This document shows, piece after piece, positions 4,129-29,260 of a stretch of 38,516 nucleotides of DNA. Source of the DNA: an uncultured bacterium (GTDB lineage Bacteria > Oederibacteriota > PGYV01 > Palsa-1178). The stretch is from positions 1-38,516 of the forward strand of contig CALAOR010000068.1 in the NCBI GenBank assembly GCA_937889595.1. The letters are read 5' to 3'. The number at the start of each line of letters is the position of its first letter. Position 1 is the stretch's first letter. The notes under the pieces are model-generated. The model was given only the letters and a program-made list of their open reading frames with translations. It had not been told where the DNA came from and did not search any database. The position numbers and the translations under genes were made by a program.

Positions 4129-6648
4129 TTAAACACCTCTCTCGGCAAGGTTAATTACCGTTTTCCAATAGTCTTGTGTTATTTTATATTCATTTTCGCG
4201 TATTGGTATATCTTTGTTCGTATCTGATGTGGCTATCCAGTATGCAACCCTATCAGCACGGACCTGTACAAGGTTCTTTTCGTTACCACACATATAAAAA
4301 GCTTCCGAATATAAGCCCTTTACCTGTTTGAGCGTGGTAATTATGCCCATTTCATTTTCATTAAGCCTGTAAAGTTCTTTTATTAACGGAAGATCCTCCG
4401 AACTTTGATGAAAAAGCGTTTTTGTTGGAGCTGATGTAAGGACCTTCTTTGCCTCCTCGTTACATAAAAAATCACTTAGCTGTTGTGTCGCTATGATAGA
4501 AGCAAGGCCCAAATGACGGCTTCTTTTCCCAAGGTCGAGCAGAAAGTTCTGCCCGCCTGAAAATCTGGCCAGAAACCAAGCCTCATCAATTACCAACAGT
4601 TGTCTTTTTTGTAATTTTTTATTGATTTTAAAACGCTGCATTGAAAAATTTGATATTATGTAAATGCCCAGGGAAAGGATATCATCCCTGTTGGCCGGTA
4701 ACCCGGATATATCAAATACGACAAAGGAACTTTTCAGTTCAATGTTGCTCGGCCGATCGAGCATACCCGCAAAAGAACCTTCTCCAATGAAAGGACTGAA
4801 TTTTTCTTTGATATCAAGCAATTGCTCTTTGTGTTTCTGTGATTCTATTGTTTCAATAAATTCATCAATAACCACCAAAATATCCCTTAAAAGAGGTATT
4901 GTCTTCCTGTCAATAATTTTATTACCCGTTTTATCTATTATGAATTTAAGTTTATTTTTGTACATTTTACGGACCATTTTTTCCGCAAGCCCGGATTCCA
5001 CCTTACTTAACCTTGACACTCCTTCTTCGGAAAGAATAATGTCAAATAACCCGGTTATATAAGCAATTTTATTTGGGGTAGGATCGCCTTTAACCGTGAT
5101 GTCATTTTCGTCACCGTGTTCGTTAATAAGCGCCGGGTCATAATCAATACAGTCGAAGGGATTGTAACTGCAGGTACCGTCAAGTGATAGTGTTATGTAT
5201 TGTCCGTCATTACACTTACAGTTATATTCATATGATTTGGATTTGTCAATTATGATCACTTCCGGCCGCCATGGAGCAATTCTAGTCAATATAAGATTGA
5301 TAAAAAATGATTTACCCGAGCCTGGCCGTCCTACAATTATATGATTGTTATTCTCAACAGCTGGATTATAGGGTCCATAAAACACAGATTTACCTGTTAA
5401 ACTTGTTCCTATATAAACACCGGCATCTACTTTTTTGACTTCAAAATTAAAAGCCGGCATTAGGTATGAAAGATTGCCGTCTGTACGATCCCCCGGACTC
5501 CCTGTAATTGTAAGGTAATAATGTCCGGCCGTGTTGTGACATAAAGGAAGCGTAGAAAGAAATAATTTCTTTTGTTCAAAAATTCCAGGATAATGTGTAC
5601 AGCCCTCAATAATACTTTCAAACTCCGGTATTAATTCCTCAAAAGCATCCCGATTTTCATGTCTAAAACTCAAGTAGCAGGCAAATTCAATAAATTTAAT
5701 TTCACGTCTTGCCTGAGCCGATAATAATATCTCAGTATTATCAGCAATTGCCCTATTGTCAATATCGGTTTGTTTTTCACTTGTTCCCAGGGCAAGTTTT
5801 AATTTATTAGTCAATTGTTCTTTAATTTCGTGCTGTGATATACCGCGAACAAATAAAGACAACGTGGAATAATTATTTATAAGAAACAATTCCTGCAAAA
5901 AATTGGGTTGTGAAGGTATGTCAGCAATATAAAAAGTTTTTACGTGTTGTTCTCCAATCATGCCCATGGCATTTTCTTCACTGAAAGGGGTCCTTATCAA
6001 TGAACTTTTTAACGTATTAAACGATTGTCTTAAGTGGTCTACCGGTATTTTTCCTGTTTGTTCTGGATTAAATGCCTTATCGAGCATGTCCTTGATCTGT
6101 TGTTCGGTCATTTCAACTACTTCAACACCCGATATCTGCCCCATAAAGCCCACAAAGCCCCTGCTTCTGTTTGAAATATTGCGCCTTAACGTTGCCGTAT
6201 CTTTTTTAATTTCTGTCGATTTTATTGTTTTAGTAAACAGGTTGGTTTGTTTTCTGTATGTAAAAAGGATATAAATATTTTGTTCGCAAATTCTCTCACT
6301 GCGAACAAAGTCAGTAATGAACTGATCAAGTATATTGGGATAATAATTTTGAAATTCAGGAACCGGGTGGTTTTTAATAATTCTTTCGTTATATTTAAAA
6401 ATATCCGGTTCAGGATCATACTTTTCGGTTTGAATTACAATTTGTACTTCTTCACCGGCTTTTAAAGTATTTAACGCATTTCTAAAACTCAAAGTAGCCT
6501 GGTCAAGTTGGGCTTCGGCGGCTGTAAGGGTATTAATACCACCGTTTAGCTTAAAGCATATTATTGGAGTATCACTTTCGTCAATAATATAGCCATCTCC
6601 AAAATCTTTAAAATTAATTAAATCCTGAAAAGCTAAATTTTCATTCAT
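4129..6648 (-). CDS. virB4: VirB4/TraC-family conjugation ATPase
   Basis: 839 aa. An N-terminal VirB4/CagE-type region is followed by a RecA-like ATPase domain with Walker A GRPGSGKSF (residues 440-448) and Walker B LLVIDEAWFL (Asp688, Glu689). A DISGL strand and the ATQQLSDFL segment typical of the family are also present. The protein powers assembly and function of the type IV secretion channel at the inner membrane. Its start overlaps the end of the VirB3-like gene (ATGA), and its stop abuts the VirB8-like start, so the three are translated as one block. The length is normal for the family and the key residues are intact. Confidence 0.95.
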   Translation of the reverse strand: MNENLAFQDLINFKDFGDGYIIDESDTPIICFKLNGGINTLTAAEAQLDQATLSFRNALNTLKAGEEVQIVIQTEKYDPEPDIFKYNERIIKNHPVPEFQNYYPNILDQFITDFVRSERICEQNIYILFTYRKQTNLFTKTIKSTEIKKDTATLRRNISNRSRGFVGFMGQISGVEVVEMTEQQIKDMLDKAFNPEQTGKIPVDHLRQSFNTLKSSLIRTPFSEENAMGMIGEQHVKTFYIADIPSQPNFLQELFLINNYSTLSLFVRGISQHEIKEQLTNKLKLALGTSEKQTDIDNRAIADNTEILLSAQARREIKFIEFACYLSFRHENRDAFEELIPEFESIIEGCTHYPGIFEQKKLFLSTLPLCHNTAGHYYLTITGSPGDRTDGNLSYLMPAFNFEVKKVDAGVYIGTSLTGKSVFYGPYNPAVENNNHIIVGRPGSGKSFFINLILTRIAPWRPEVIIIDKSKSYEYNCKCNDGQYITLSLDGTCSYNPFDCIDYDPALINEHGDENDITVKGDPTPNKIAYITGLFDIILSEEGVSRLSKVESGLAEKMVRKMYKNKLKFIIDKTGNKIIDRKTIPLLRDILVVIDEFIETIESQKHKEQLLDIKEKFSPFIGEGSFAGMLDRPSNIELKSSFVVFDISGLPANRDDILSLGIYIISNFSMQRFKINKKLQKRQLLVIDEAWFLARFSGGQNFLLDLGKRSRHLGLASIIATQQLSDFLCNEEAKKVLTSAPTKTLFHQSSEDLPLIKELYRLNENEMGIITTLKQVKGLYSEAFYMCGNEKNLVQVRADRVAYWIATSDTNKDIPIRENEYKITQDYWKTVINLAERGV

Positions 6649-14376: not shown

Positions 14377-15705
14377 CTACCCAGTTTGGACTTTTTGTTT
14401 GACGTTTCGTTGACTGCCCTTAAAAGCGCTAATCTCCACGTCCGTTAATTTGGCGGTGTGCCCGCCTATTATCTCTATGTGCTGTCTAAGACCGATGTTT
14501 TTGATATTAATTGCCGCGTTCTCATCACGGTCTAAGACCGCTCCGCAGCTGCTACACGTCCATGACCTATCACGTAATGTCAGTTCCGCGTTCTTGTGGC
14601 CACAATGACAACAAATTTTGCTTGTCGGCGCGAACCTGTTTATCTGGATCAAGTTGACCCCGTACCAATTGCACTTATATTTAAGCTTGTTTATAAAACT
14701 TGTCCAAGACACGTCCGATATTGATTTTGCGAGCTTATGGTTCGCGAGCATACCCTTTACGTTAAGGTTCTCAACCACAATCGTCCGCACTTGGTTATCA
14801 TGCGTAAGTTTGTAACTGAGGTTATGTGCAAAGTTTTCGCGAACCCGTACAATCTTTTCATGGAGCCGGGCAATCTTCCTTTTCTGTGCTAAAAATCTGT
14901 TACTTTTGACTGACCCTTTCAACATACCCTTACGTCTTGCTAAGGTTTGTTGTAACCGATGAAATTTCTTTTCATACTTTTTAAGTGTTTTAGGATTTTT
15001 AATTTTTTCCCCGGTGCTTAACGCGATCATATCAATAAGGCCGAGGTCAAGTCCGATTGTCTTGGCCGGAGTTATTTTTGATACTGACAATGGCTTGTCC
15101 AGCGTGTCAACCATTATGCTGACATAATACTCGCCGCTCTTTGTCCTGGACACGGTGAGGTTGCGGATCTGACCCGTAAAATGTCGGGATAATATTACTT
15201 TGATAGGCGTGTCAATACGCGGTAGTGTGATTGTGTGTGTCTGCCAGTTCACGTATTGGCGAGTATGTGTGCTCTCATATGTCCGATAACTTTGCTTGTT
15301 GCCGTGCTTTTTTTTGCGCTGCGGAAATCCCGCGTCCTTGCCTGTAACACCTTTTTTCAATCTTGTAAAAAAATTTTTGTAAGCTGTTTGCAGATCGCCC
15401 AGGGATTGTACAAGCGCCATGGCCTCGATTTCATTAAGCCAGGGCACTTCCGGGTTCTTTTTAAATTGTGTTAGTTCATTTGATAATTTGTAAGCATTAA
15501 ATTTAGGCCGGAGTTTTTTGTACTGTACTTCCGTCATTTCCCCGGATTCAAGTTTTGGTTTAAATTCCTTTTCAAAGTCCTCATACGCCTTATTGGATTT
15601 AGCAAGCGCCCAGTTATAGATATAACGACATGAACCAATAGTTTTATTGATCTGTGTTGCTTGATCTTCTGTTGGGTACAGCCTGTATTTAAAAGCTTTA
15701 AGCAT
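14377..15705 (-). CDS. TnpB/Cas12-like RuvC nuclease beside the array
   Basis: 442 aa from the ATG at 15705; GGGAG lies eight bases upstream, and the longer reading from 15765 has no such site. It starts MLKAFKYRLYPTEDQ, as in IS200/IS605 TnpB. The RuvC centre is intact: Asp in TIGLDLGLIDMIAL, Glu in IVVENLNVKGML, Asp in LDRDENAAINI. A zinc finger, CCHCGHKN then CSSCG, lies between the last two. TnpB proteins are RNA-guided DNA nucleases and the ancestors of Cas12. No TnpA gene or IS605-type end is evident here. A CRISPR-like array begins 56 bp past the stop, so this may be a type V-U-like effector rather than a transposon gene. By sequence alone it reads as a normal TnpB. Confidence 0.85.
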   Translation of the reverse strand: MLKAFKYRLYPTEDQATQINKTIGSCRYIYNWALAKSNKAYEDFEKEFKPKLESGEMTEVQYKKLRPKFNAYKLSNELTQFKKNPEVPWLNEIEAMALVQSLGDLQTAYKNFFTRLKKGVTGKDAGFPQRKKKHGNKQSYRTYESTHTRQYVNWQTHTITLPRIDTPIKVILSRHFTGQIRNLTVSRTKSGEYYVSIMVDTLDKPLSVSKITPAKTIGLDLGLIDMIALSTGEKIKNPKTLKKYEKKFHRLQQTLARRKGMLKGSVKSNRFLAQKRKIARLHEKIVRVRENFAHNLSYKLTHDNQVRTIVVENLNVKGMLANHKLAKSISDVSWTSFINKLKYKCNWYGVNLIQINRFAPTSKICCHCGHKNAELTLRDRSWTCSSCGAVLDRDENAAINIKNIGLRQHIEIIGGHTAKLTDVEISAFKGSQRNVKQKVQTG

Positions 15706-16192
15706 TTGTTGCTCCCTTACTATCTTGTCAAACACTTTACAATATAAAACCTCAAAAGTCAACAACTATTTGTTAGCCTCATGGGGATTATTTAAGACAT
15801 TAAAGCGTATTACTTTTCTTACTTTTCCGTTTACGGTCAGGACCTTATGGGATTGGCCCGCACACAAGACGGAAATTACCTACTTTATAATTGTACAACA
15901 AAAACATTGTTTTAACCATACAATTTATCTAAACATTATTTAGCCTGTTAAGGCTGTTTAGTTTGTTTCATAAAAACGCCATGGCTTGGTTCAGGGGAAC
16001 CCCCTGCTTTTTAGGGGGGAGGACCCCTATATACTTTCTCGGTTCGAGTTTTTTCACATTTAGGTTGCGTTTGGTCTTGCCGGGAGCTAATTTTATCTTT
16101 AAATAAAATTGAAGCCCCCGGACAAGTGGTTTACTGGCGAGTGACACTCTCGATCAGTGCCAATTCCAAAAACATAAACTCAAATCCTTATA
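15706..16192. other. non-coding region with hairpins
   Basis: No convincing gene. It holds a small palindrome CAGGGGAACCCCCTG near 15993, and a longer imperfect hairpin near 16080-16125 (CCGGGAGCTAATTTTAT paired with ATAAAATTGAAGCCCCCGG). At 16136-16144, GCGAGTGAC is complementary to nine bases of the candidate small RNA at 16445. Any promoter for the nuclease gene should be here, but I see none that is close to consensus. Confidence 0.4.
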
Positions 16193-18472: not shown

Positions 18473-18829
18473 TTAAACCTCCTGTTATTGTTTTAAAACC
18501 CGCCAATGAACTCGTCCAAATCGCGTACATTCTGTACCGATTTGGGCGAGTTCATACTTAGCGGCAGGCGGAAAAGGTTATATACTCGTGGGCAAGGTAT
18601 AAAAATTATTTGCGGGTTTAATGGCGCGGAGCTCGCTGGCGAGGCCGTGACAGGCAAATTATTTTTATACCTTGCCTGTCAACTCATCATTAACCGAGCG
18701 GAAAAGTATGATCAGGCTTTTAAGCGACAGCAATAACCCGGCCGGAGCCGGGATTATTGCCGAGCGCCGCAACCGTCGCTTTTCCGGGATAATGATGGCA
18801 TCAGAACTTTTTCCGCCTGCCGTGCCTTT
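18473..18829 (-). repeat. ~358-bp structured leader repeat, copy 1
   Basis: Nearly identical to 21361-21719, and like it ends with AACAAT-ACAGGAGGTTTAA just before a small gene. It is rich in nested inverted repeats: a 48-nt hairpin at 18507-18554; a 22-nt arm at 18591-18612 pairing with 18655-18676; arms GGCAGGCGGAAAA and TTTTTCCGCCTGCC near the two ends; and AATAACCCGGC/GCCGGGATTATT inside. Two base pairs of the 48-nt hairpin differ between copies in a compensated way, which points to selection on the fold. It could be a regulatory 5' leader RNA or a single-stranded DNA site. Confidence 0.8.
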
Positions 18830-19116
18830 TTTTTGCTTCATACAATGCGTTTTAAGGTCCTTAAAAAAGTCGTCTAAGGGATTCCAAAGGGTATTAGCTA
18901 CCCTTTGGTTGCGGGATTCTCAAGGGGCACAACTGCCCCTTGAGTGATTTTGTCCAGGTCAAGAACAACGGCGCGCTGATGTGCGGGCCTGGTATACCGG
19001 CCCGCGCGGACGTGCGCCGGTATAATGCCGCAACCCGGACGAGGACTCAACAAAGGGCTATATGTCCGGGTTGCGGCCGCGCCCTGGCTCTTTACAAGGG
19101 CGCGCCGGCCGTTCCT
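18830..19116 (-). other. non-coding, dense in strong hairpins
   Basis: No gene. At least five hairpins follow one another: CCAAAGGGTA/TACCCTTTGG, CTCAAGGGGCA/TGCCCCTTGAG, GCGGGCC/GGCCCGC, a 14-bp stem GCCGCAACCCGGAC/GTCCGGGTTGCGGC (near 19027-19077), and GCGCCCT/AGGGCGC. The GC content is far above that of the flanking genes. It continues the structured leader of the gene at 18470 and follows the stop of the 60-aa gene at 19117. Confidence 0.65.
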
Positions 19117-20462: not shown

Positions 20463-21092
20463 TTATAGTTCCTGATTTTCTAACAATGAGCGATATGTAC
20501 CGTTGTATCTTTCCATTAATCCCTCTTCATAAAATGAAAAGTACCCTTTGCCCTCCTGACCTATAATAATATGGTCAAGCAAGGTGATATCCACTTCTTT
20601 AGTAGCAAAAAGAAGTTTTCTTGTTACTTTTCTGTCGTTCTCGCTCGGGGCAGGGTCACCGCTCGGGTGATTGTGAATTATTACAATTGATAAAGCGCCT
20701 TTATCAATACACGCCTTTATTATTTCCCTCACATATAAAATGCTCTGCGTGATTGTTCCCTCACATAAAAGCATATTGTCAAAAATCTTGTTTTTTGCGT
20801 TTAAAAATATTGCGTGTACAGTTTCCCTTTTGAGGTCATAAGCAACATTTTTAAAATGTGCGATTATGTCCGCCTGTGATGAAGCATTGAATTTTTTGCC
20901 TATAAACTTATTTTTCGTGTACGCTTCGGAAAAGCTTTTCAAGGTGTTTATAAACCCTTTTTCCTGTTCTGACAGGGTCGGTAATAATAAGACCTGTTTC
21001 AAATTTCGGTAATCGTATTTTGTGATTTTCTCCGCAAGTCCTTTCTTTAAAAACGGTTTAAATTCCTCAAAGTGAAAGTAAAAGTTTTTCAT
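20463..21092 (-). CDS. radC: RadC-family JAB/MPN domain protein
   Basis: 209 aa. The metal-binding JAMM-type motif is intact: HNHPSGDPAPSENDRKVTRK in the centre, followed by LLDHIIIG. RadC-like proteins are common on plasmids, phages and islands, and chromosomal RadC was once linked to DNA repair; the true activity is unsettled, with a protease or nuclease-like role suggested. The N-terminal ~80 residues lack the usual helix-hairpin-helix. AGGAG lies before the ATG, which follows the 53-aa gene by a few bases. Confidence 0.88.
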   Translation of the reverse strand: MKNFYFHFEEFKPFLKKGLAEKITKYDYRNLKQVLLLPTLSEQEKGFINTLKSFSEAYTKNKFIGKKFNASSQADIIAHFKNVAYDLKRETVHAIFLNAKNKIFDNMLLCEGTITQSILYVREIIKACIDKGALSIVIIHNHPSGDPAPSENDRKVTRKLLFATKEVDITLLDHIIIGQEGKGYFSFYEEGLMERYNGTYRSLLENQEL

Positions 21093-21257: not shown

Positions 21258-21357
21258 TGGTTAACCCCTGCGCTTTTTTCTGCGCTTTCTTTTCCAGTTT
21301 TATTAACATTTTAATCATGCTGTAAATATTCTTACCCTTAACCGCTTCTTTTAACAT
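21244..21357 (-). CDS. very small basic protein behind structured leader copy 2
   Basis: 37 aa (MLKEAVKGKNIYSMIKMLIK, then LEKKAQKKAQ). AGGAGG lies before the ATG, exactly as in the gene behind leader copy 1. Short and helical, it may be a leader peptide for the radC operon or a small functional protein. Confidence 0.5.
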   Translation of the reverse strand: MLKEAVKGKNIYSMIKMLIKLEKKAQKKAQGLTNEKN

Positions 21358-21360
21358 TGT

Positions 21361-21719
21361 TTAAACCTCCTGTAATTGTTTTAAAACCCGCCATTGAACT
21401 CGTCCAACACGCGTACATTCTGTACCGTGTTGGGCGAGTTCAATTCTGAAACGGCAGGCGGAAAAGGTTATATACTCGTGGGCAAGGTATAAAAATTATT
21501 TGTGGGTTTAATGGCGCGGAGCTCGCTGGCGAGGCCGTGACAGGCAAATTATTTTTATACCTTGCCTGTCAACTCATCATTAACCGAGCGGAAAAGTATG
21601 ATCAGGCTTTTAAGCGACAGCAATAACCCGGCCGGAGCCGGGATTATTGCCGAGCGCCGCAACCGTCGCTTTTCCGGGATAATGATGGCATCAAAACTTT
21701 TTCCGCCTGCCGTGCCTTT
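21361..21719 (-). repeat. ~358-bp structured leader repeat, copy 2
   Basis: Second copy of 18473-18829. The hairpin at 21395-21442 has arm bases AACACG/CGTGTT where copy 1 has AAATCG/CGATTT, so two pairs are swapped and pairing is kept. Most other differences are single and lie outside stems or make G-T pairs. It stands immediately before the first gene of the radC operon. The segment between the two copies, about 2.5 kb, is flanked by direct repeats and could be amplified or lost by recombination. Confidence 0.8.
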
Positions 21720-21837
21720 GACCTACTCAAACATCGGTCTATAAAAAACAGCGAAGCGAATAAGGATTCATAAGGAAATTATTTCCTTATGTCGGGGGAT
21801 CCAGGGGGTTGAAAACCCCCTGGGTTTATGAATTTTT

Positions 21838-21958
21838 CCCCGCGGCCACGGGGCCTTTGAAACTTTCCCGGTTGTCCGCAGGACAGCCGATGTCTTTTGC
21901 AGACGACCGCAGGGCGGCTGATGTAGTACGCGATCGGCGGTAGGCGATCGATGTCTTC
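21838..21958. repeat. multi-hairpin module, copy 1
   Basis: Order of parts: a GC hairpin (CCCCG/CGGGG), then CCTTTGAAACTTT, a hairpin GGTTGTCC-GCA-GGACAGCC, GATGTCTTTTGCAGA, a hairpin around CCGC/GCGG, GATGT, and a hairpin CGATCG/CGATCG followed by GATGTCTT. The linkers recur at 22753-22853 and 23331-23453 while the stems change. The upstream bases 21720-21837 hold two more strong stems (AAGGAAAT/ATTTCCTT and CCAGGGGGTT/AACCCCCTGG). Confidence 0.7.
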
Positions 21959-21960
21959 AA

Positions 21961-22700
21961 CAGCCGGGGACTACAGGTTCTTCCCCGGCTGTAAAACTCC
22001 GTGCCTTATACGGCGCGTCTACTACGCCGCATGCTCTTATGAGGCGGCCATGAGAGCCGCCGAATACTTCAACAGCCGGGGACTATAGGTACTTCCCCGG
22101 CTGTAAAACTCCGTGCCTTATGCGGCGTGTCTACTTACGCCGCATGCTCTTATGAGGCGGCCATGAGAGCCGCCGAATACTTCAACAGCCGGGGACTACA
22201 GGTTCTTCCCCGGCTGTAAACTCCGTGCCTTATGCGGCGTGGTCCACTTACGCCGCATGCTCTTATGAGGCGGCCATGAAAGCCGCCGAATACTTCAACA
22301 GCCGGGGACTACAGGTTCTTCCCCGGCTGTAAACTCCGTGCCTTATGCGGCGTGGTCCACTTACGCCGCATGCTCTTATGAGGCGGCCATGAAAGCCGCC
22401 GAATACTTCAACAGCCGGGGACTACAGGTTCTTCCCCGGCTGTAAACTCCGTGCCTTATGCGGCGTGGTCCACTTACGCCGCATGCTCTTATGAGGCGGC
22501 CATGAAAGCCGCCGAATACTTCAACAGCCGGGGACTACAGGTTCTTCCCCGGCTGTAAAACTCCGTGCCTTATGCGGCGTGGTCCACATACGCCGCATGC
22601 TCTTATGAGACGGCCACATGAGCCGCCGAATACTTCAACAGCCGGGGACTACAGGTTCTTCCCCGGCTGTAAAACTCCGTGCTTTATGCGGCGCATGCCG
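21961..22700. repeat. seven-fold ~113-bp tandem repeat made of three hairpins
   Basis: Units begin at 21961, 22073, 22186, 22299, 22412, 22525 and 22639, with spacings of 112-114. Each unit has three stems: CAGCCGGGGA/TCCCCGGCTG, ATGCGGCGT/ACGCCGCAT and GGCGGC/GCCGCC. Units 3-6 are almost identical and the outer ones diverge; the last unit is incomplete. No reading frame runs through the unit and 113 is not a multiple of three, so it is not a protein repeat. A diverged relative with a different stem (CAGTGGGA/TCCCACTG) follows at about 22709-22734. Confidence 0.85.
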
Positions 22701-22752
22701 CATGTTTCAACAGTGGGAATATAAGGGCTCCCACTGTGCTTTAATAATTTTG

Positions 22753-22853
22753 CCTCGCCGTAGGCGAGGGCATTTGAAACTTTTTCAGATACCCGATAGG
22801 GTAACTGATGTTTTTTGCAGACGACCGCAGGGCGGCTGATGTATGGTCTTGAG
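22753..22853. repeat. multi-hairpin module, copy 2
   Basis: Stem CCTCGCC-GTA-GGCGAGG, then CATTTGAAACTTT, a hairpin CAGATACCC-GATA-GGGTAACTG, GATGTTTTTTGCAGA, a hairpin around CCGC/GCGG, and GATGT. The linkers match copies 1 and 3 and the stems are different sequences. It lies at the right end of the tandem repeat, mirroring the position of copy 1 at the left end. Confidence 0.7.
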
Positions 22854-22876
22854 TTCTTATCATACTTTATTTGTAC

Positions 22877-22907
22877 TTGAAAATCTTATACGGTATGTTA
22901 TTATAAT
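22877..22907 (+). promoter_or_regulatory. possible plus-strand promoter
   Basis: TTGAAA (22877-22882) and an exact TATAAT (22902-22907), with a long 19-base spacer. It points to a short segment that ends at a strong terminator. Confidence 0.45.
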
Positions 22908-22913
22908 TGTGTT

Positions 22914-22970
22914 AGGTGCCAGCTCCAAGCGAAACAGAAAAGCCCCGGTTAATGCCGGGGCTTTTTCTTT
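22914..22970 (+). ncRNA. candidate ~55-nt small RNA with intrinsic terminator
   Basis: From the -10 box at 22902 the transcript would read TAGGTGCCAGCTCCAAGCG and end at AAGCCCCGG-TTAATG-CCGGGGCTT followed by TTTTTCTTTTT. The terminator is strong and the promoter moderate. The first ~25 bases resemble the plus strand of the tRNA-like sequence at 23160-23194 (shared GTTAGGTGCCA and AGCGAAAC), so the RNA would be partly antisense to a minus-strand tRNA-like transcript. Confidence 0.5.
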
Positions 22971-23094
22971 TTAAGGACCTGCCTCTTTAGCGGACACTTC
23001 AAAAATGAAAGCACTAATCATTTTTGCAAGTGTACGCTGGGTGGGTGGGATTATCATATCGTTTTTACCCCTGCCTATAATACTCGGTTCACCT

Positions 23095-23228
23095 TGACAG
23101 CCCCTTAAAATGAAAAGACGAAGAGCCGAGAGAGCCGCGTGGGAATCGAACCCACTATCGTTAGGTGCCAACCCAACTATCGCTCCAGCGAAACGGCTCT
23201 TCGTGAAAACTTTATGAAGGGGCTGTCA
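23095..23228 (-). tRNA. tRNA-like sequence inside an inverted repeat
   Basis: On the minus strand, acceptor arms AGAGCCG (23200-23194) and CGGCTCT (23137-23131) pair, and the T arm GTGGG-TTCGATT-CCCAC (23155-23139) is perfect. The D region (CGCTGGAGCG) is too short for a normal D arm, and the anticodon-like stem GTTGGG/CCTAAC has a six-base loop (TTGGCA), so it is not a standard tRNA and no CCA follows. It is flanked by TGACAGCCCCTT and AAGGGGCTGTCA. A second copy of CGGCTCT follows the first. It may be a decayed tRNA, an integration scar or a tRNA mimic. Confidence 0.5.
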
Positions 23229-23330
23229 CCGATAGGGCGGAACACCGTGGAGCAGGTAAACCTTAATTTATCAAGCAGGGGGAAAAACAATACCTTAGAG
23301 GGCATTAGCTGTGTCGTAAAAAGTCTTTGC

Positions 23331-23453
23331 CCCGCAGCTGCGGGGGCCCTTGAACCTTTCCCGGATGTCCGCAGGACAGGCGGTGTCTTTTGCAGACAAC
23401 CGTAGGATGGTTGATGTTTTGCGCGACCGCCTGCGGCGGTCGATGGTCTTGAT
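23331..23453. repeat. multi-hairpin module, copy 3
   Basis: Palindrome CCCCGCAGCTGCGGGG, then CCCTTGAACCTTT, a hairpin around GTCC-GCA-GGAC, GTGTCTTTTGCAGA, a hairpin CAACC/GGTTG, GATGT, then GACCGCC-TGC-GGCGGTC followed by GATGGTCTTGA. It has the same order as copies 1 and 2 with altered stems. It stands alone, about 480 bp beyond copy 2. Confidence 0.68.
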
Positions 23454-23640
23454 CTATTGCCCTGACCGGTCCTAATCTTTGTGCGGCTCCACATGCAGAG
23501 CCGCATGCTCTTGCGTTAGCGGCCGCAGCCCCCAAAGGGGTTGAGACCCGCAAGCCTTAAGCGGGGCTCAAGGCGCAGCCCTGCAGAGCGGCACGGCAGG
23601 TTCATGCCGGGCAACGCCCAAACACAAGAAATTAAAAATT
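23454..23640. other. non-coding, diverged hairpin unit
   Basis: The stem TGCGGCTC/GAGCCGCA is followed by TGCTCTTGCGTTAGCGGCCG. This parallels the second stem of the tandem unit, where ATGCGGCGT/ACGCCGCAT is followed by GCTCTTATGAGGCGGCC. The pairing is kept with different bases. Reading frames here (for example on the minus strand from 23506) are incidental to the GC-rich stems. Confidence 0.5.
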
Positions 23641-23754
23641 AAAAAATTACATTCATCAACAAACAATAACTTTTCTAAATCTTTTATTTGTTTAATTTAT
23701 TTGTATTTTTAAATAAATTCCTGAAATCACTATTACTTTATAGGTTCTTTCAAA

Positions 23755-23771
23755 AGTCCAACCGTTGGACT
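23755..23771 (-). terminator. hairpin terminator, left of the long inverted repeat
   Basis: AGTCCAA-CCG-TTGGACT, followed on the minus strand by TTTTG. The identical 17-bp hairpin recurs at 24121-24137 with a T-run in the other direction, so the pair closes off about 370 bp on both sides. Confidence 0.55.
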
Positions 23772-23874
23772 ATTGTCATATAATCCTTTATTTACAGCTA
23801 TTTTTTAAGTACCATACCGCTTATAACAAAATCTCTAAACACAACTTCTTTATGAGATATTATAAAATAATAGC

Positions 23875-23945
23875 GAATGCCTTGTTTCTGTACCGTTCTG
23901 TCCTGCTTTGTTCTGTTCTGTCCCGTCTCGTTCTTTGTTCTTTAA
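23875..23945. repeat. short degenerate CTGTTCTG-type repeats
   Basis: The plus strand runs through several variants of TGTTCTGTCC and CTGTCCTGC with no purines beyond G at fixed spacing, about every 10-11 bases. It could be a binding-site cluster or simple sequence. It adjoins the long inverted repeat. Confidence 0.35.
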
Positions 23946-24108
23946 CTTACCTATTTTACATACCCCCCTCATTCACATTCTGAGTAGTAAACCACCAAAA
24001 TCTATCAACATCTAAAGTTACACCTAGATGCTGATAGATTTTGGTGGTTTACTCGAGGCTCAGAATGTAGCGATTATGAGGGGGGTATGTAAGCTTAAAA
24101 TAGGTAAG
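23946..24108. repeat. 163-bp near-perfect long inverted repeat
   Basis: The left arm starts CTTACCTATTTTA and the right arm ends TAAAATAGGTAAG. Between them pair CATACCCCCCTCAT/ATGAGGGGGGTATG, ACATTCTGAG/CTCAGAATGT and AGTAAACCACCAAAATCTAT with its complement, leaving a loop of about ten bases near 24015-24024. Small internal loops interrupt the stem. No gene is inside. It could be a MITE-like insertion, a single-strand replication origin or a transfer-related site. Confidence 0.85.
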
Positions 24109-24120
24109 TTACTACCTATT

Positions 24121-24142
24121 AGTCCAACCGTTGGACTTTTTT
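24121..24142 (+). terminator. hairpin terminator, right of the long inverted repeat
   Basis: AGTCCAA-CCG-TTGGACT followed by TTTTTT on the plus strand, a good intrinsic terminator, though no plus-strand gene precedes it. It also lies just beyond the stop of the minus-strand gene at 24166. Confidence 0.6.
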
Positions 24143-24165
24143 GTTCTATGAGTATGACGAATGCT

Positions 24166-24858
24166 TTAAGGGTATTTTTTTTGAAGTTTTTTGTCTGTAA
24201 ATGTGTGTACTTCATATTTTATCATTGAAGTTTTTGATAGTGTTTCTATATAAAATCTGACGCGTTCCTCGCGAACCACAAAGATTTTTTTAAAGTCTTT
24301 ATATTGACTTCTATAATCGCGAAAATCCTCAAACAACTTTGATCCCGCTCTTGACCGTTTTTCAAGTTCTATGAAACCATATCCGTCTTTGTCTTTAAAT
24401 ATCAAATCCGGTATTCGATAATTCTTTTTTTCCGAATACCGGATTTGATGAATAAATAACTCTGTTGTATATTCTTCAATCAGTTCGTTTGTATATAAAT
24501 AAATGATTATATCCACAAGTGTTAAATCATGTCTGATTTCAGCCTCGTTTGGCCTGACTAGGTATTTATGTATTGGTGTTCCCGCACCATTTTTAAAGCC
24601 CTTGCTACGAAGTAGTTCTATTCCCGCCATATCCATAAGAAATATTTGTTCCGGTCTTCCTTTTTTTATGTCTGTAACCGCGTACATTCTTTTAATAAGA
24701 CCTTTTTTTTCAAGGTTTAACAGGTAATTTCTCGCCCTGAAAAAACTATTAAAATAAAAAGCCTGTACCTGGTCAATAGTCATTACCTTATTTTTATAAA
24801 TTTCATAGAGTATTTCAACCTGTCTTGTGTTGGCTTCGTTACTCTTCATTTTCCTCAT
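24166..24858 (-). CDS. replication-relaxation-type protein
   Basis: 230 aa (227 if the ATG at 24849 is used; it has GAGG just before it). The N-terminal winged helix-turn-helix (TRQVEILYEIYKNKVMTIDQ) is followed by an alpha/beta domain with RIPDLIFKDKDGYGFIELEK, which resembles a restriction-endonuclease-like core. This build fits the replication-relaxation (Replic_Relax) family of conjugative plasmids and ICEs, thought to act in plasmid replication or DNA processing. The gene overlaps the end of the coupling-protein gene, where such proteins are often found. The biochemical activity is not established. Confidence 0.72.
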   Translation of the reverse strand: MRKMKSNEANTRQVEILYEIYKNKVMTIDQVQAFYFNSFFRARNYLLNLEKKGLIKRMYAVTDIKKGRPEQIFLMDMAGIELLRSKGFKNGAGTPIHKYLVRPNEAEIRHDLTLVDIIIYLYTNELIEEYTTELFIHQIRYSEKKNYRIPDLIFKDKDGYGFIELEKRSRAGSKLFEDFRDYRSQYKDFKKIFVVREERVRFYIETLSKTSMIKYEVHTFTDKKLQKKYP

Positions 24859-28761: not shown

Positions 28762-29109
28762 CAGTAAACTTAAATACGTTATTGGTTTTATGCTCCTGGG
28801 CCGGATAATTTTCACACTTACCTTAAAAACACGTTCTTAACGCCCTTTTAACGGTTTTAACGGTTATTAGCTACATATTCCCTTAATTATAGGTAAAAAT
28901 CAAATCCAGGGCCCATACAGGCTTAAATTATTGGGTTTGGTGGTCTTGTCGGATGGTCATTTTATGTATGTGAAAATTCTCGTTTAAAATCGTTTTCTAA
29001 CGTAAGGTCTAACGTTCTTATTTATACCCTTTAGATCTAAATCGTTACTACGTTAAGCGCAGTTCTAAAAATAAAAAAGCTTATTTTTAAGATAAAAAAT
29101 AGAATTTAT
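28762..29109. other. AT-rich region between par promoter and iterons
   Basis: No gene. It has many TAACG and AACGTT motifs (for example TAACGGTTTTAACGGTTA near 28847-28865, and CTAACGTAAGGTCTAACGTT near 28997-29016) and an AT-rich stretch with AAAAATAA/TTATTTTT at 29067-29090. These are plausible centromere and DNA-melting elements of the replication origin. Confidence 0.45.
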
Positions 29110-29260
29110 GCATGTAACAGTACGGTAAACGCACGTAAGACTACGGTATATGCACGTAAGATTACGGTATCGGTGCACGCAAAACTACGGTATAACGCAT
29201 GTAAGCCTACGGTATAAATGCACGTAGAACTACGGTATATGCACGTAGGGGTACGGTATT
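29110..29260. repeat. oriV: seven iterons, probable origin of replication
   Basis: Direct repeats of the form GCACGTAAGACTACGGTAT start at 29110, 29131, 29152, 29175, 29197, 29220 and 29241, so every 21-23 bases, two helical turns. The ends GCAYG and TACGGTA are fixed and the middle varies. Such iterons bind Rep initiators of theta-replicating plasmids. They lie just beyond the 3' end of the rep gene rather than before it, next to an AT-rich stretch. Confidence 0.88.

Follow-up and report, generated by a model that had tools for sequence, protein, structure and literature searches.

Three strings of covarying hairpins with near-constant linkers in the noncoding region of a putative bacterial plasmid

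At three places in a bacterial contig, strings of small hairpins were found whose stems change while the sequences between them hardly do, which raises the question of what these strings are and whether they would be read as RNA or as single-stranded DNA. The window, that is, the whole stretch of 38,516 nucleotides that was analysed, is an entire contig (C68) of a genome of 3.42 Mb in 93 contigs. Judging from its gene content, it would be a plasmid or another conjugative element. In particular, a TopB-like topoisomerase, VirB4/TraG-type ATPases, Replic_Relax, RadC and an RPA-type initiator were found by a Pfam scan, and ParA and ParB are also encoded. The hairpin strings, called ABCD here, lie in a noncoding region of about 3 kb flanked by RadC (20463-21092) and Replic_Relax (24166-24858). 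Elsewhere in the window, an array of iteron-like 21-bp direct repeats adjoining the replication initiator (29108-29259) is likely the oriV, and a plasmid-borne TnpB of the IS200/IS605 type was found at 14377-15765. Moreover, a second TraG-type fragment occurs in the same genome (G000:C51, L138; 4345 bases; 43% identity over 148 residues), suggesting that another plasmid may be present.

The same order of hairpins and linkers is present from 21838, 22753 and 23330, as had been read from the sequence alone, and all three copies fall inside 1.6 kb. Copy 1 (21836-21953) and copy 3 (23328-23445) are tandem strings of hairpins A-B-C-D, while copy 2 (22751-22851) consists of A-B-C, without hairpin D. 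The hairpins are the following:

21838-21853, + strand: hairpin A of copy 1, stem CCCCG/CGGGG
21869-21889, + strand: hairpin B of copy 1, apex C(GCA)G
21900-21920, + strand: hairpin C of copy 1, apex C(GCA)G, two A-G mismatches
21931-21950, + strand: hairpin D of copy 1, apex C(GGTA)G
22753-22769, + strand: hairpin A of copy 2, stem CCTCGCC/GGCGAGG, apex C(GTA)G
22785-22808, + strand: hairpin B of copy 2, apex C(GATA)G
22818-22838, + strand: hairpin C of copy 2, identical to hairpin C of copy 1
23330-23345, + strand: hairpin A of copy 3, stem CCCCGC/GCGGGG
23361-23383, + strand: hairpin B of copy 3, apex C(GCA)G
23393-23413, + strand: hairpin C of copy 3, apex C(GTA)G, stem altered complementarily
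23424-23442, + strand: hairpin D of copy 3, stem CGACCGCC/GGCGGTCG

Each unit runs from hairpin A through a CCTTTGAAACTTTCC-like linker to hairpin B, and from there through a GATGT(C/T)TTTTG linker to hairpin C and GATGT. The modular layout of three hairpins with linkers that the sequence-only reading had described is confirmed, but hairpin D of copies 1 and 3 had been overlooked. The linkers are 8-15 bases long and near-constant across copies (CCTTTGAAACTTTCC, GATGTCTTTTG and GATGT), with 74-84% identity between copies, compared with 65-81% for the paired columns. They are not strictly fixed, as had been claimed, since copy 3 has CTTGAACCTTT and GGTGT. The motif formed by a linker plus hairpin C (GYAGACRACCGYAGGRYGGYTGATGT) occurred three times, against 0.00 expected in shuffles.

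Copies 1 and 2 do bracket a 113-bp tandem array on the + strand (21955-22693, 6.5 copies), which starts directly after copy 1 and stops 57 bases before copy 2. Each 113-bp unit is made of three hairpins, namely E (ACAGCCGGGGA/TCCCCGGCTGT), F (ATGCGGCGT/ACGCCGCAT) and G (GGCGGC/GCCGCC), and the array is followed by one more:

22710-22737, + strand: hairpin E', stem ACAGTGGGA/TCCCACTGT, unlike that of E; common to the sister plasmid

The stem sequences of E and E' differ, and the CAACAG...CTGT frame is kept.

To assess covariation, the three copies were aligned (alignment A2), the modular structure was named by hand, and the result was compared with 500 column shuffles and with controls in which the partners were slid by 1-3 columns. 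Under this structure 93.1% of the cells pair, and eight stem pairs have both sides changed with complementarity kept, a number reached by none of the 500 shuffles (mean 3.1), while the slid-partner controls gave only 0 or 1 both-side changes. Nevertheless, the claim that every stem is different yet complementary holds in part only, as copies 1 and 2 have the same hairpin C, and complementarity is lost at some pairs (in copy 1, A columns 9-15; in copy 3, B columns 39-56 and 40-55). When whole copies were folded with RNA energies, the gain of the minimum-energy folds over shuffles was modest (z of -1.1, -2.8 and -1.9). Because the stems covary, the folded structure of ABCD is considered conserved, and it is very probably under selection; with three sequences, the covariation gives good, though not overwhelming, evidence for selection or active maintenance of the structure. 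The folded shape is kept, together with the unpaired linkers and the apex loops, whereas the letters of the stems are not.

Further copies were searched for with a covariance model built from the three copies (R1). In the 3.4-Mb genome itself exactly the three known copies were recovered, and among 383 other genomes, including all the FCPU426 genomes reached, nothing convincing appeared, the best outside match having an E-value of 0.02. Weak matches in G002, G001 and others, in which most of the conserved linkers are missing, were attributed to chance, and a weak match suggesting a fourth copy at 21732-21855 on the minus strand was rejected. No Rfam 15 family reached its gathering score anywhere in the window, and no sub-threshold match within 21300-24200 was credible on ABCD; those to MIR, MicC and similar families were dismissed, as they sit on a long palindrome (23960-24088) or on a terminator. 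The long exact linker pattern had zero matches in viral contigs, where a 15-base linker pattern gave 77, about the chance expectation for such a length. Furthermore, no match covering the ABCD stretch was found in plasmid and phage collections, in which BLAST matches of about 40 bases at 22932-22974 fall on the terminator, outside the ABCD copies. No TraG relatives were found in viral contigs, and TraG-bearing contigs of other FCPU426 families had no similarity to the noncoding region. By the criterion that the sequence-only reading had itself set, this absence of further homologues counts against a functional RNA family, which is thus only partly supported: the fold is conserved, as its covariation indicates, but no homologue appeared in the genomes, Rfam, viral contigs, plasmids or phages searched.

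The nearest relative contig is a sister plasmid of 13,516 bases (G003:C108, L137), which has the same order as the window (ParA-ParB-TraG-Replic_Relax, noncoding region, RadC). Where the two could be aligned, coding DNA was mostly 65-80% identical, and a noncoding stretch of 273 bases was 83% identical. ABCD is absent from this sister plasmid. A 111-base repeat there, at 5011-5172, contains hairpins of the array classes, namely F (ATGCGGCGT/ACGCCGCAT) and E' (CAACAGTGGG..CCCACTGTG). The association with the same plasmid family, which the sequence-only reading had suggested checking, holds only in weaker form, for related hairpins in the noncoding region and not for ABCD itself. Strings of hairpins with a constant frame and changing stems are thus a theme of this region in the two plasmids, differently placed in each, and the region resembles an array of hairpins under selection for structure. 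Directly downstream of Replic_Relax, nested long inverted repeats were also observed between two copies of the palindrome AGTCCAACCGTTGGACT (23752-24140), a candidate oriT or partition site, with a counterpart of like architecture and unrelated sequence in the sister plasmid (6048-6389), where the palindrome is ATTGGGAAATCATTTCCCAAT-like.

RNA-like elements are found near ABCD. A minus-strand leader is present twice in the window, at 21380-21722 and at 18493-18830, each time preceding a minus-strand operon, and once each in the G003 and G001 plasmids (L137 4018-4360 and L213 1729-2080). Its fold is closed and multi-branched, with 27 covarying pairs in four sequences and a ribosome-binding site 3' of it, and it is likely a minus-strand RNA; the predicted pairs include about 10 G-U and 2 A-C cells, the structure having been predicted with G-U allowed. 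Adjoining each leader is a further class of hairpin, in which the stem varies and a GGAATCCC-like flank (minus strand) stays constant:

18884-18944 and 21801-21823: changing-stem hairpins with the GGAATCCC-like flank, window
4389-4412: the same in L137
upstream of the leader: the same in L213

Moreover, a tRNA-like RNA is predicted on the minus strand at about 23060-23291 (L137 4765-4994), with 83% identity between plasmids of different genera. Within a long outer stem, in which pairs covary, come an inner stem and a core resembling a tRNA, whose T arm is canonical, whose D arm is short and whose anticodon arm has six pairs; the RNA shows 10 covarying pairs and folding z-scores of -5.2 and -6.2. 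Its acceptor stem and an extended stem exclude one another, and each is conserved. A canonical tRNA identity was rejected, as none was found by ARAGORN, and the only Rfam match was a sub-threshold one to tRNA-Sec (30.6 bits vs. a gathering score of 47). A model of the core (R2) matched it in the two plasmids only, the remaining matches being ordinary tRNAs, and the other matches of a pattern scan, the FCPU426 contig aside, held no tRNA where checked.

On the + strand, a promoter (TTGAAA-16-TATTAT with TG) precedes a short RNA of about 65 bases (~22905-22970), which is closed by a terminator with a stem that might work in either direction; promoter, short RNA and terminator (22877-22970) are conserved in the two plasmids (L137 4608-4700). 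In both, complementarity links the 5' part of the short RNA with the D and anticodon arms of the tRNA-like element, with pairing energies of -41.5 kcal/mol in the window (shuffles, -22.9 +/- 2.8) and -37.8 in the sister plasmid (shuffles, -20.6 +/- 2.9). Apparently, the two RNAs are transcribed convergently toward the shared terminator stem. The leader and the tRNA-like/antisense pair are clearer RNAs than ABCD.

Regarding ABCD itself, a slight preference is given to the + strand acting as single-stranded DNA, a tentative reading with RNA close behind. The + strand would fold while the plasmid is single-stranded, during transfer or replication, and the hairpins and exposed linkers would be read by a polymerase of the host, a primase or a protein of the plasmid. 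This may serve, for instance, to initiate second-strand synthesis or early transcription in the manner of single-strand origins and Frpo/ssi sites; we infer both that this strand exists in single-stranded form and all that is said here of the reading protein. The genes of this T4SS-bearing plasmid would speak for this reading (VirB4/TraG-type ATPases, Replic_Relax, RPA-type initiator and ParA/ParB), as would the gene order kept in the sister plasmid and the related hairpins in the same region; the clear RNA elements on both sides, and a sister plasmid without ABCD, count against it.

The apex loops also differ between the strands. On the + strand, 8 of the 11 have the form C(GNA)G or C(GNNA)G, against 1 of 11 on the minus strand, although these loops are not independent, the modules being paralogous; changes in loop length keep the first G and the last A (GCA, GTA, GATA and GGTA). 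Loops of the GNA/GNNA type closed by G-C pairs have exceptional stability in DNA (PMC4686876). Without flanks, the mean probability of the conserved pairs was 0.64 for DNA of the + strand, 0.47 for DNA of the minus strand, and 0.47 and 0.44 for RNA of the + and minus strands, a modest margin for DNA that partly reflects generally weaker DNA pairing and, we infer, the energy model's treatment of loops, and which shrinks with 200 bases of flank (0.50 vs. 0.35). Furthermore, with DNA energies copies 1 and 2 have the modular fold as their minimum-energy fold, whereas with RNA energies copies 1 and 3 do not, which weakens the RNA reading.

According to that second reading, ABCD would belong to a structured RNA, either a leader or a long noncoding transcript, with linkers that bind protein or RNA as single strands. 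This is possible, and nearly as likely as single-stranded DNA because likely RNAs surround ABCD (the leader, the tRNA-like minus-strand RNA and the short + RNA), and the covarying stems agree with it. An RNA transcribed from the + strand is expected to prefer G-U, and one from the minus strand to show A-C. In the ABCD stems on the + strand, 2 G-T and 2 to 4 A-C mismatches were counted, depending on how helix ends are treated; as the two types are nearly balanced, A-C being as common as G-T, neither RNA strand is favoured. In addition, the 113-bp array has a few single-sided changes, which would be wobbles only on the minus strand, so that the strand is ambiguous. A promoter-like TTGACC-16-TATAAA on the + strand at 21719-21746 would speak for RNA, but it precedes copy 1 only, a terminator-like hairpin comes after it, and the sister plasmid does not conserve it. 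Precedents exist in GOLLD and ROOL, large structured phage RNAs of unknown function that are often near tRNAs (PMC12286853) and that, like the ABCD region, are large structured noncoding regions in mobile elements with tRNAs sometimes present. However, ABCD consists of small individual hairpins set one after another and not of a compact multi-branched fold, and neither an Rfam match nor a homologue was found for it.

Unlikely is a third reading, in which hairpin repeats that expand or move would account for both ABCD and the 113-bp array, the stems being kept complementary by template switching, which copies one arm from the other, with no function needed. It would accommodate the modular copies, the loss of D in copy 2, the tandem amplification and the presence of other arrays in this position of the sister plasmid, as well as the near-perfect stems of the region (383 Watson-Crick, 2 G-T and 5 A-C pairs, a count that includes the recently duplicated array). 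Tandem hairpin elements with complementary substitutions are known in sponge mitochondria (PMC2800124), and these repetitive and double hairpin elements resemble ABCD in being noncoding hairpins in tandem doublets, although ABCD lies on a bacterial plasmid, has class-specific conserved linkers and is not dispersed. Yet no copies occur elsewhere in the 3.4-Mb genome, and neither terminal inverted repeats nor target duplications were noted. Moreover, the linkers are at least as conserved as the stems, which stem repair alone does not account for, and the mismatches of hairpin C are kept at the same two positions, where template switching would erase them. The BOX elements of Streptococcus pneumoniae, with their boxA-(boxB)n-boxC structure, share the modular stem-loop layout and the variable tandem array (PMC3049150), but they are dispersed through the chromosome, whereas the three copies of ABCD are on one plasmid, all at C68:21836-23445; a dispersed repeat of the BOX, REP or MITE type was rejected, as many dispersed copies were not found. 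An integron attC array was also dismissed, since no integrase was present among the Pfam-scanned proteins and no gene cassettes lie between the copies.

Turning back to single-stranded DNA, the closest likeness is to the sso and Frpo/ssi sites of plasmids and ICEs, in which stem-loops are formed by single-stranded DNA and the folded structure is required (PMC4595007, PMC11541004). They are, like ABCD, noncoding, plasmid-borne and composed of several stem-loops, a likeness by description and with no known sequence similarity. However, ABCD has three copies with an intervening tandem array, and the paired -35/-10 of Frpo was not recognised in it.

A broader and rather doubtful proposal is that ABCD may represent a new class of plasmid element. 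Hairpin strings with class-specific linkers and stable C(GNA)G tips would form a code, in single-stranded DNA (or RNA), that a protein reads, with their stems freely exchanged, rearranging between related plasmids, beside a tRNA-like RNA countered by its own antisense RNA. No plasmid studies in the candidate phylum FCPU426 were found in a literature search. Hairpins that keep their shape while swapping letters are a strong sign of selection on single-stranded structure, and this region joins hairpin strings compactly on one plasmid with a leader whose pairs covary and with a tRNA-like RNA and its matching antisense RNA, where single-stranded DNA recognition and plasmid tRNA mimicry would become testable in a simple reporter system.
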